45,920 bases of DNA from Propionibacteriaceae bacterium (GTDB lineage Bacteria; Actinomycetota; Actinomycetes; Propionibacteriales; Propionibacteriaceae), in assembly GCA_030537675.1 (NCBI GenBank), contig JAUNVL010000011.1, forward strand, positions 1,290 through 47,209, given 5' to 3'. A program made the position numbers and the translations under genes. This document shows, in pieces, positions 2,191 to 6,084 of the stretch. Position 1 is the stretch's first letter, and each line of letters opens with the position of its first letter. The notes under the pieces were generated by a model. That model worked only from the letters and a program-made list of their open reading frames with translations, had not been told where the DNA came from and searched no databases.

Positions 2191-3591
2191 TCAGTAGTTG
2201 ATCATGTGGCCACCGATGCCCTCGGCCGCCTCCTTGAGCGCTTCGGACAAGGTGGGGTGGGCATGGATGTTGCGACCGATCTCGTCCGTGGTCAGGTCGT
2301 AGGCCTGCGCAAGGGTGAGCTCCGGCAGGAGTTCCGTGACGTCGGGGCCAATCATGTGGGCACCGAGGATTTCGTTGTAGCGCGAGTCCGCCACGATTTT
2401 GACGAACCCCACACCTTCGCCCAGTCCCCAGGCCTTGCCATTGGCTGCGAACGGGAACTTGGAGACCTTGACCTCGTAGCCCTTTTCCTTCGCCTGTTCC
2501 TCGGTGTAGCCGAAAGAAGCAATCTGCGGCTGGCAGTACGTGGCGCGCGGGATCATGTCGTAGTTGATGGGCTGCGTCTCGGCGCCCGCGATGGTCTCGG
2601 CGGCGACGACGCCCTGTGCCTCGGCGGTGTGGGCCAGCATGAGCTTGCCGGTGCAGTCCCCGATGGCGTAGACGTTCTCGACGTTGGTGCGCATGAAGTC
2701 ATCGATGGCGATCGCGCCGCGGTCGGTGGTCTCAACCCCGAGGTTCTCGAGCCCATAGCCAGTCAGGCGAGGGGCGAAGCCGATGGCAGACATGAAGCGG
2801 TCGGCTTCCAGTACCGATGACTCTCCGCCCTTGGCGGGGCTGATCGTCACCTTCACACCGGAGCCGGTGTCCTCGATGGCCTCGACCTTCGTGGAAGTCA
2901 TGACCTTGACGCCCATCTTCTTGTAGGCCTTGGCCAACTCCGCGGAGATCTCCGCGTCTTCTGTCGGGACCATGCGGTCCAGGAACTCCACGATGGTGAC
3001 GTCCACGCCGTAGTTGCGCATGACGAAGGCGAATTCGGTGCCAATGGCTCCCGAGCCGCCGATGATGATGGAGCTCGGGAGGCTGTCCTCGAGGATCTGC
3101 TCTTCGTAGGTGACGACGTTCTTGGAGACCTTCGTACCGGGCAGCATGCGCGTGGTGGCGCCAGCGGAGATGATGGCGTTGGTGAACGTCACGGTCTTCT
3201 TGGAGCCGTCGTCGCCCTCCACCTCGACGGTGTTGGCGTCGATGAACGTCCCCCACCCGTTGAGTTCCTTGATCTTGTTCTTCTTCATCAGGTAGTGGAT
3301 GCCCTTGATCATCCGGTCGGAGACCGAACGGCTGCGCTTGTAGGCCTTGCCGTAGTCGAAGGACACCTCACCGGTGATGCCGAAGAGGTCGGACTGATCG
3401 TTGAAGATCTGGGCCACTTCCGCATTGCGAAGAAGCGACTTGGTGGGGATGCACCCGACATTGAGGCACACGCCTCCCCAGTACTTCTTCTCGATGATGG
3501 CGGTTTTGAGGCCAAGCTGGGAGGCGCGGATGGCTGCAACATAACCGCCGGGGCCGGCGCCGAGTACGAGGACGTCAAAGTCGTGGTTCAT
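2191..3591 (-). CDS. lpdA: Dihydrolipoamide dehydrogenase (E3)
   Basis: The 466-residue flavoprotein reoxidises dihydrolipoyl groups of 2-oxoacid dehydrogenase complexes (and possibly glycine cleavage) with NAD+. Visible features: N-terminal FAD-binding [12 protein letters not shown]; the redox-active disulfide in [13 protein letters not shown] (Cys42, Cys47); a central NAD-binding [11 protein letters not shown]; a late FAD motif YAIGDCTG; and a C-terminal dimer-interface HAHPTLSEA with the active-site His. Start ATG 3591 follows AAGGTG at good spacing; the longer frame upstream overlaps the regulatory region of the divergent gene and is not likely to be translated. No other complex subunits are adjacent. 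It is divergent from the XRE-MurA fusion, 89 bases apart. Confidence 0.97.
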
Positions 3592-3653
3592 GCAGAACAC
3601 CTTAGTCCCGACGCGGCGCGAGCCGCAGTCAGGGGGATGGTCTCCCTGATTTG

Positions 3654-3669
3654 ATCTCAGATATGAGAT
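3654..3669. promoter_or_regulatory. Palindromic operator candidate for the XRE-MurA gene
   Basis: Perfect inverted repeat ATCTCA-N4-TGAGAT directly upstream of the TATGTT -10-like hexamer (3669-3674), sharing one base with it. The size and placement fit a repressor dimer site that would block RNA polymerase. Autoregulation by the encoded XRE domain is the simplest inference. Confidence 0.6.
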
Positions 3670-3674
3670 ATGTT
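3669..3674 (+). promoter_or_regulatory. -10-like hexamer for XRE-MurA gene (leaderless)
   Basis: TATGTT ends 6 bases before ATG 3681; no Shine-Dalgarno sequence is present. Confidence 0.5.
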
Positions 3675-3680
3675 GGCGCG

Positions 3681-5219
3681 ATGAGTACCACCAGCCAGGC
3701 AATAGGCACCATGATCCGTGATGGACGCGTAGCTCGTGGATGGTCGCAGCAGCGACTGGCCGACGAACTCGGCACCGCGCAGAGCGCCGTCCACCGCATC
3801 GAGAACGGCCAGCAGAACCTGTCGCTCAGCATGATCGACCGGCTCGCCGAAGCTCTCGAGATGCCGCTCATCCACACTGCCACCGAGGGCAAGGTGAACT
3901 TTCAGATCACGGGGCCCACCAAGCTCAGCGGCGACATTGAGGTGCGGACGTCGAAGAATGCGGCCGTCGCGCTGTTGTGCGCCAGTCTCCTCAACCGCGG
4001 AACCACCGTGCTGCGTGGCATTGCCCGCATCGAAGAGGTGGACCGGATCTGCGAGGTGCTGACCTCGATCGGCGTGACCATGAAGTGGATCGGTGACGGG
4101 AAGGATCTGGAGATCCACCGGCCGGAGGTGGTGACCCCCGAGACGATCAACCAGCGGGCGGCGCGCCGCACCCGGAGCATCCTGATGTTCCTGGGGCCGC
4201 TCATGCACGACTTCCAGACCTTCGAACTCCCCTACGCCGGTGGTTGTGATCTGGGCGCCCGCACTGTGCACCCGCACATGTCTGCGTTGCGCCAGTTCGG
4301 TCTGAGCGTCGAAGCCACCGATGGGCAGTACCAGGCGACGGTCAACCCCGACGCCAACTCCGAGCGACACATCACCCTCGTGGAGCGCGGCGACACCGTG
4401 ACCGAGAATGCGCTCATGGCGGCTGCTCGCAGCGAGGGTGTCTCGGTGCTGCGCAACGCGTCGGGCAACTACATGGTGCAGGACCTCTGCTTCTTCCTCC
4501 AGAAGCTGGGGGTCAGGATCGAGGGCATCGGCACCACCACGCTGCGTATCCAGGGGGTCAAGGACATCGACGTGGACGTCGACTACCACATCTCCGAGGA
4601 CCCGATCGAGGCCATGAGCCTGCTCACCGCGGGGATCGTCACCAACTCCGAGATCACCGTGCGGCGCTGCCCCATCGAGTTCCTCGAGGTGGAGTTCGCC
4701 GTGTTGGAGGAGATGGGCCAGAAAATCGAGTTGTCGTCGGAGTACAAGAGCAACAACGGCCAGACCCGGCTCGTGGACGTCACCATCAAGCCCTCCACAC
4801 TGGTGGCCCCGCTGGACAAGATCCACCCCATGCCGTTCCCCGGGCTCAACATCGACAACCTGCCCTTCTTCGCCGTCATCTGCGCGACCGCTGAGGGACA
4901 GTCGGTGATCTATGACTGGGTCTACGACAACCGTGCGATCCACCTGAAGAAGCTGTCCGACCTCGGGGCCAACGTGCAGTTGATGGACGCGCATCGGCTC
5001 CTGATCATCGGCCCCACACGTTGGCGGGGACGCGACATCGAATCACCTCCGGCCCTGCGCCCGGCCGTGTGCCTGATGCTGGCCGCGATGGCCGCCCGCG
5101 GCACCACCAACCTGTTCGACGTGTACGTCATCAACCGTGGCTACGAGGATCTCCCCCAGCGGCTGAACGCCCTGGGCGCCAACGTCAGCGTCTTCTGGGG
5201 AGATCCGCACTCCAACTGA
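3681..5219 (+). CDS. XRE helix-turn-helix fused to MurA-like enolpyruvyl transferase
   Basis: The 512-residue protein has an N-terminal XRE/Cro helix-turn-helix (residues about 6-60: [23 protein letters not shown]) joined to a full MurA/EPSP-synthase barrel (about 72-505). MurA adds enolpyruvate to UDP-GlcNAc, the first committed peptidoglycan step. Key residues appear kept by motif alignment to E. coli MurA: Lys92 in SKNAA (Lys22), Cys189 in GGCDLGAR (Cys115), Arg194 (Arg120), Asp392 (Asp305), Arg486 in NRGYE (Arg397). The DLR motif is ALR here (458-460), losing the Asp but keeping the Arg. It may be an active enzyme that also regulates, or a regulator using the barrel as a UDP-sugar sensor. 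It is probably not the housekeeping MurA, which normally lacks this domain. Confidence 0.92.
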
Positions 5220-5229
5220 GCGGTGACGC

Positions 5230-6084
5230 TCAGGACAGGCTGATGGCCCGAAAGTTGTGTTTCGGTTCCACAACGTTGTCCTGGGCGGCCACGAGTTGGA
5301 GTTCCTGCTCGCCGGACTCGGTGGTCTGCTCGAGGATCGAGTACACGATGGAGGCCGTCCGTGACAAGGACTCGGCGAGGTCCTTGGTCTTCAGCCAATG
5401 GGTGAGGAACATCGCCGTGGTCAGGTCACCCGAGCCGGTGAAGTCGCGACCGAGCAGCGGGGTCTCCACCAGCCATGCGCCGTCCTCCCCCACCGCCAGC
5501 ATGCGCATGGGGTCCGGAACCATGTCGTCTGCCACCACCGACGTGACCAGCACGATTCCCGGGCCCCGTGAGCGCAGTTCTTCGGCAGCCTCCAGGACGT
5601 CCCCCACCGTTTTGGTGGTCCGGCCGGTGAGGTACTGCAGCTCGAACAGGTTCGGGGTCAGGATGTCGGCTGCTCCGACGACGTGATCGCGCATGAACTC
5701 CGGGATCCCGGGACGCGCGTAGAATCCTCGGCCGACGTCTCCCATGACCGGATCCGCGCAGAACAGCGCACGGGGGTTGCGTTTCTTGACCAGTGCGACT
5801 GCATCAAGGATGACCTGGCCCATGTCGGCCGACCCCTGGTACCCCGAGAGCAAGGCATCCACTTTGGGGAGGACCCCACGCTCGTCGACGCCCTGGATCA
5901 CGGAGGCGACGTCCTCGGCGTCGATCAGTGGTCCGCGCCACGTCTCGTAGCCGGTGTGGTTCGAGAAGTTGACCGTGTACACCGGCCACACGTTGATCCC
6001 GGATCGTTGCATGGGAAACACGGCGGACGAGTTCCCGGCATGGCCATAGGCAACCGCAGACTGGATCGAGAGAACTGTGTGCAT
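5230..6084 (-). CDS. pdxY: Pyridoxal / pyridoxamine kinase PdxY
   Basis: The 284-residue ribokinase-fold kinase phosphorylates pyridoxal and related B6 vitamers with ATP, salvaging PLP precursors. Family signatures: N-terminal SIQSAVAYGHAGNSSAVFP, the SGYQGSADMG loop, CADPVMGD, and a C-terminal GSGDLTTAMFL anion-hole/ATP region carrying the catalytic Asp. Length matches E. coli PdxY (about 287). I chose ATG 6084 because homology starts there and AACAAT (6096-6091) lies 6 bases upstream, again suggesting a leaderless message. It is convergent with the XRE-MurA gene, only 10 bases between stops, and divergent from the phosphodiesterase gene. Confidence 0.93.
   Translation of the reverse strand: MHTVLSIQSAVAYGHAGNSSAVFPMQRSGINVWPVYTVNFSNHTGYETWRGPLIDAEDVASVIQGVDERGVLPKVDALLSGYQGSADMGQVILDAVALVKKRNPRALFCADPVMGDVGRGFYARPGIPEFMRDHVVGAADILTPNLFELQYLTGRTTKTVGDVLEAAEELRSRGPGIVLVTSVVADDMVPDPMRMLAVGEDGAWLVETPLLGRDFTGSGDLTTAMFLTHWLKTKDLAESLSRTASIVYSILEQTTESGEQELQLVAAQDNVVEPKHNFRAISLS

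Follow-up and report, generated by a model that had tools for sequence, protein, structure and literature searches.

The stretch of DNA analysed here (the window) is 45,920 nucleotides long and comes from the genome assembly of a Propionibacteriaceae bacterium (GCA_030537675.1, contig JAUNVL010000011.1, positions 1,290 to 47,209 of the forward strand). It contains a gene in which an XRE-type helix-turn-helix (HTH) domain is fused to a domain of the type of MurA, the enzyme that controls entry into cell-wall synthesis and is targeted by fosfomycin. The fusion gene lies on the plus strand at 3681..5219, from the ATG at 3681 to the stop codon ending at 5219, and encodes 512 amino acids. It is predicted to be leaderless, and the gene model is backed by orthologs. 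An earlier note on this DNA had placed the start of the gene at 3654, which is the start of a palindrome; the coding sequence begins at the ATG.

The HTH domain comprises residues 1-62 (3681..3866, plus strand) and matches Pfam HTH_3 over residues 12-62 with 48.6 bits (gathering cut-off, 23). An AlphaFold2 model places its helices at residues 5-18, 23-30, 34-41, and 49-59, with a moderate predicted local distance difference test score of 66-88 by block, and contains a short helix at residues 62-68 that connects the HTH to the MurA domain. The recognition helix is QSAVHRIE at residues 34-41 (3780..3803, plus strand). Just after it, G43, Q45, and N46 show no variation in 149 of 149 intact members; the same holds for Q34, R39, and E41, but these contributed to the definition of the intact state. 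HTH_3 was matched at E ≤ 0.001 in all 32 aligned fusion members.

The MurA-type enolpyruvyl transferase domain comprises residues 72-506 (3894..5198, plus strand) and matches Pfam EPSP_synthase over residues 77-495 with 167 bits (cut-off, 22.8). With both Pfam matches above their cut-offs, the earlier description of an XRE HTH fused to a complete MurA domain is upheld. The inside-out barrel fold, together with the EPSP_synthase match, places the domain among MurA-type enolpyruvyl transferases; the structure search covered the MurA part, while the HTH was compared by sequence. The catalytic residues are intact and the UDP-binding loop is divergent. K22, R91, C115, R120, D305, R371, and R397 (E. 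coli numbering) are all present, and the Lys92, Cys189, Arg194, Asp392, and Arg486 named in the earlier note align with K22, C115, R120, D305, and R397. Nine catalytic residues are kept in 166-168 of the 168 rows of an alignment, the remainder being gaps in two incomplete rows. The fusion has 91% identity to a protein of Tessaracoccus antarcticus (Propionibacteriaceae), which marks the genome of the window as Tessaracoccus-like. An enzyme with intact catalytic residues and a DNA-binding domain are thus present in one protein, which is the architecture of a trigger enzyme.

Directly upstream of the gene lies the operator GATCTCAGATATGAGATA (3653..3670), which is conserved in relatives and has one mismatch to TATCTCA-N4-TGAGATA. 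The shorter form ATCTCA-N4-TGAGAT is exact at 3654-3669, and the sole other match in the window has two mismatches. Approximately one chance match at two or fewer mismatches is expected per window, and the evidence within the window is suggestive only; the palindrome is placed far beyond chance by its conservation in relatives. The -10 element, TATGTT (TAnnnT; 3669..3674, plus strand), has as its first TA the end of the operator, and the ATG is six bases downstream. The exact palindrome reported earlier therefore stands, while its placement immediately upstream of the -10 does not, as the 18-base-pair operator overlaps the -10 through the common TA. A sigma-70 consensus scan of 3500-5400 detected no promoter, so the -10 call rests on sequence and conservation.

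In a first set of 81 loci, the operator was present with two or fewer mismatches in 73 and with four or fewer in 78, and was absent from 3. In a set of 116 loci (loci, genomes, and families are numbered here with L, G, and f), 101 contain TATCTCA-N4-TGAGATA with two or fewer mismatches, 10 with three or four, and 5 have none. Conservation of the palindrome upstream of orthologous fusions, on which the interpretation had been staked beforehand, is thus found in 101 of 116 loci. Across these 101 loci the TA of the -10 is present in 101 and the final T in 95, and in 88 the operator and the start codon downstream of it are 10-11 bases apart, the TA being common to operator and -10. In two leadered relatives (L016 and L091) the operator lies further upstream of the start codon, together with the promoter. 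A variant with a spacer of 2 rather than 4 nucleotides (TATCTCA-TA-TGAGATA or close) occurs at L024, L037, and L218-L221, where the helix is intact.

The genome of the window contains one operator site with two or fewer mismatches, located at the fusion gene. A count over 80 of the fusion genomes from the genus and class surveys gave 70 sites with one or fewer mismatches in 67 genomes, and 65 of the 70 lie at the fusion gene (judged by eye). The reversed pattern, used as a control in the same genomes, gave 1 site. A wider regulon was considered and set aside on these counts. A phylum-wide scan for the exact operator, which was poorly targeted, found it in 6 of 296 genomes.

The recognition helix and the operator are lost together. 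In the 116 loci, scored with a stricter helix rule, the helix is kept in all 111 loci with an operator and lost in all five without one (L011, the Micropruina loci L073 and L080, L103, and L104). In 171 loci, scored with the rule freed at one variable position, both are present in 152, both are lost in 18, the operator is lost and the helix kept in 1, and the helix is lost and the operator kept in 0. The 171 rows exclude 42 Streptomycetaceae loci and three duplicates, and three further rows are excluded from the 168-row alignment. All 74 fusion genomes of family f7 were read; the window's family (f1) is represented by 30 of its 116 matching genomes, those that best matched a lost-helix query, plus the earlier loci. 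A tree of the MurA domain, built by a quick method, contains seven independent supported pairs that differ in operator state. The helix changes in the same direction in six, in the opposite direction in none, and not at all in one (sign test, p = 0.031). A smaller MurA-domain tree of 74 rows has three of three pairs in the same direction. Since most rows and families show the operator state, the change is read as loss.

Compared with the closest intact relative, 16 of 17 lost proteins have an HTH identity under the 5th percentile (78-87%) for intact pairs of the same MurA identity, part of this drift being built in by the definition of "lost" through the recognition helix. L185, with an HTH identity of 89%, looks like a recent loss. 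Five catalytic residues checked in the lost proteins are retained throughout, save for one gap in the truncated L104. In G634 the whole HTH and the operator are absent, and its only fusion-type MurA starts straight with the enzyme domain; HTH and operator are both present in the congeneric G260. At L172, HTH queries in any frame found no HTH remnant (best E 0.14, versus ≤1e-14 in the control L114). It is very probable that the HTH recognizes its own operator, and a cognate operator tied to the DNA-binding domain is a further trait of trigger enzymes. As helix and operator are lost together while the catalytic residues stay, the DNA-binding part appears to live and die with the operator, and the enzyme seems not to need the HTH.

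These results bear on the alternative that the palindrome serves another regulator, or is an unusual promoter element, and that the HTH does something else. The palindrome does overlap the -10, and the genomes hold other XRE-type domains, seen as weak HTH-only matches. With operator and helix lost together in six of the seven pairs and 65 of 70 sites at the fusion gene, this alternative is very improbable.

The fusion is widespread. It is present in 18 of the 19 genomes of the window's genus, the other (G309; 97% complete, 220 contigs) having no fusion match at all. The window's family has it in 116 of 117 genomes, in some as contig-end pieces. A second family, f2, is taken as Nocardioidaceae because its locus L108 equals the Mumia quercus locus L039 in MurA-domain sequence; the fusion is present in 29 of its 29 genomes, 27 of which have no other match at E 1e-25 with the five best candidates per genome scored. 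Family f7 has it in 74 of 79 genomes, in one (G634) without the HTH. In the class Actinomycetes, a count of the match table gives 96 of 295 genomes, each match starting at or before query residue 8. Among 246 genomes of the phylum, 14 match at E ≤ 1e-60; two of these belong to other classes, and their matches do not include the HTH. On sequence evidence, the fusion is an old, stable actinobacterial family.

No second MurA was found in 23 of 25 chosen genomes, in which the TIGR01072 matches besides the fusion reach at most 65 bits. These matches are aroA in the window's genome (G000) by reading, and are assumed to be aroA in the others. Fifteen of the 23 are single-contig assemblies, and the fusion of G133 is counted as two pieces. 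By the same model, an unfused MurA accompanies the fusion in the Streptomyces-type genomes G123 and G404 (family f82). A second canonical MurA in G000 was rejected as a candidate, the sole other EPSP-family match (L001) being aroA by open reading frame reading. The domain-free second murA for which the earlier note proposed a search is thus present in Streptomyces, and was found neither in the window's genome (93% complete) nor in most family relatives. The 295-genome survey scored the five best candidates per genome, and an extra MurA could be missed there; the genus survey, the 25-genome TIGR01072 scan, and the f7 survey (all but a few rows) scored every candidate. In the window's family and the Nocardioidaceae-type family, complete genomes included, the fusion is usually the only MurA found. 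With no other MurA found in many complete genomes, the fusion would have to supply the MurA step in many species. MurB was detected in each of the 14 genomes checked. Since these genomes have MurB and the fusion is the one MurA found in them, it would act as the UDP-N-acetylglucosamine (UDP-GlcNAc) enolpyruvyl transferase.

Some genomes depart from this pattern. An unfused MurA-like second match with 30% identity is present at G762:C2:652151-653416, in a family that is otherwise fusion-only, and G490 and G542 also have a second match in otherwise fusion-only families. In two of the 96 class genomes the fusion gene is in two pieces in different frames (L104 in G133, and G547:C1:2095152-2096644). 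A sequence error is likely in G133 because no other MurA was found there.

Taken together, these observations point to a working MurA with a fused XRE domain that represses its own gene through a single promoter operator, a reading to which we assign a probability of roughly 0.86. The fusion would be the organism's working MurA, responsible for the first committed step of peptidoglycan synthesis. Two HTH domains, presumably as a dimer, would occupy the single operator TATCTCA-N4-TGAGATA. Because the operator covers the spacer and reaches into the -10, the bound pair should block RNA polymerase at the leaderless promoter, giving repression rather than activation. Plentiful enzyme would keep the gene shut, and the gene would open once the enzyme is scarce or occupied elsewhere. 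Such concentration-dependent autorepression would explain the observations. The earlier proposal that the protein controls its own gene is strongly supported by the conserved operator, the usual presence of one site per genome, and the joint loss of operator and recognition helix. If true, a MurA with a built-in repressor domain, retained in several families and linked to a single operator, would be a control loop complete in itself and a ready-made sensor part; natural controls are available in the lineages missing both helix and operator and in the one with no HTH. A literature search, which reached few subscription journals, listed among its matches no paper on an HTH-MurA fusion or on MurA self-repression.

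Several points weigh against autorepression by a working MurA. That the control is repression is read from the operator position, which is its sole basis. Five of the 70 sites are located elsewhere than at the fusion gene, compared with one site in the control, and a few further targets are possible. Thirteen of the 80 fusion genomes have no site with one or fewer mismatches and two more have a site elsewhere only; on reading, 13 of these 15 contain forms with two to four mismatches and two contain none. The seven pairs are a small number from a quick tree, and the change counts cannot separate gain from loss. The extra loci were collected with lost-helix protein queries, so the sampling is enriched for lost lineages, and the helix rule was freed after operator-bearing loci (L148, L150, L160, and L173) had been flagged solely at the variable position. 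At L187 (G586) the operator is absent by rule and the helix is kept, with Q45 replaced by R; a right half-site, TGATCTA, remains. On the enzyme side, the match to the TIGR01072 equivalog of canonical MurA (311.4 bits) is below the cut-off of 392.7, and the fusion is for this reason filed as a divergent subfamily; its match to the PRK09369 subfamily of NCBIfam (331.1 bits) is above the cut-off of 297. The residues that we take to hold UDP-GlcNAc in E. coli MurA (K160, S162-V163-G164, E188, E190, R232, and D369) are near-invariantly replaced in 116 fusions, S162 being kept in 2.

The replaced loop could mean that the enzyme domain uses an acceptor other than UDP-GlcNAc and is no MurA; NikO is an enolpyruvyl transferase-type case with a nucleotide acceptor. 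Next to the many genomes with MurB in which no other MurA was found, this is improbable. Canonical MurA, both that of E. coli and the unfused actinobacterial enzyme, has no HTH and a UDP-binding loop unlike that of the fusion. At the Cys115 position, 10 of 14 unfused actinobacterial MurAs (sampled among L126-L140) have Asp, and 116 of 116 fusions (L003-L125) have Cys. This residue may make the fused and unfused enzymes unequal in their sensitivity to fosfomycin.

Autorepression could be extended, without being replaced, by ligand gating, in line with the earlier suggestion that the protein senses UDP-GlcNAc or phosphoenolpyruvate. Whether the MurA domain is open or closed, as set by UDP-GlcNAc, phosphoenolpyruvate, or feedback by UDP-N-acetylmuramic acid (UDP-MurNAc), would then determine the geometry of the HTH dimer, and transcription would follow precursor supply or demand. 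The HTH is fused to the catalytic domain itself, whose nine catalytic residues are kept as described above, and in the model the helix at residues 62-68 leads from the HTH into that domain. MurA domains are closed by substrate and bind UDP-MurNAc tightly. Set against this are the altered UDP-binding loop and the fact that simple autorepression accounts for the observations, and the extension is possible at somewhat less than even odds. In its fullest form, in which the active-site state (free, substrate-bound, or UDP-MurNAc-locked) decides the grip of the HTH pair on the promoter as a one-protein feedback loop for wall-precursor supply in several actinobacterial families, it is slightly more tentative still.

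The divergent neighbour of the fusion gene is lpd (dihydrolipoyl dehydrogenase; 2191..3591, minus strand), which matches TIGR01350 with 552.7 bits. Neighbour genes were assigned by tblastn, and lpd is the divergent neighbour in 28 of the 116 loci, mostly in Propionibacteriaceae. In all 28 of these loci, the window's included, lpd looks leaderless, and a conserved TAnnnT (mostly TAGAGT) stands directly before its ATG. In the window this probable -10 is TAAGGT (3599..3604, minus strand), outside the operator. The earlier note had suggested that the HTH might also control lpd, coupling wall synthesis to central metabolism. The divergent position of lpd in the 28 loci would fit this, but lpd has its own conserved -10, and its start is separated from the operator by a variable 46 to 133 bases. 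The operator is also retained beside different neighbours, in Streptomyces and others without lpd there, and at L011, L073, and L080 lpd is still in place although the operator is gone. Control of lpd therefore finds no support and is improbable, and the earlier interpretation is supported in part, through the control of the fusion's own gene.

In 35 of the 116 loci a divergent aconitase gene lies 186-2767 bases upstream of the fusion. This arrangement points to SCO5998 of Streptomyces coelicolor, which is MurA2 and adjoins the aconitase gene SCO5999 in the accessible text of one account (PMC12161575). SCO5998 is probably a member of the fusion family, its identity being taken from the neighbourhood and not from sequence. 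It has been described in part of another account as a putative UDP-GlcNAc transferase with a SigB-dependent promoter (PMC8346170), and a DmdR1 site is predicted there (PMC12161575, PMC8346170). The accessible portions of these accounts mention neither an HTH domain nor a self-operator (PMC12161575, PMC8346170).

Among solved structures, the HTH is near the C-proteins and HipB in sequence comparison, C.AhdI and C.BclI matching slightly better than HipB. The XRE HTH of HipB resembles that of the fusion with E of about 3e-4, and the TIGR03070 model (HipB / Y4mF antitoxins) gives 45.9 bits, below its cut-off of 71.65. The HipB operator, given as TATCC-N8-GGATA in the accessible part of its description (PMC3376134), has the outer TATC-N10-GATA arms in common with the fusion operator and differs in the inner bases. 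Unlike the fusion, HipB is a free-standing antitoxin with a kinase partner.

Control of MurA through CwlM and through ReoM/PrkA reportedly acts on the protein. BzdR/BoxR-type regulators contain an XRE HTH and a shikimate-kinase-like domain that senses a catabolic intermediate. They are like the fusion in joining an XRE domain to an enzyme-like domain; in contrast to their sensor domain, the fusion keeps its catalytic residues, and the enzyme appears to be needed. BirA, a biotin ligase with an HTH, and PutA, a proline catabolic enzyme with a ribbon-helix-helix domain, repress genes of their own pathways and, like the fusion, are metabolic enzymes that carry a DNA-binding domain. Whereas BirA and PutA control pathway operons, the fusion is a cell-wall enzyme with apparently one main site, at its own promoter.
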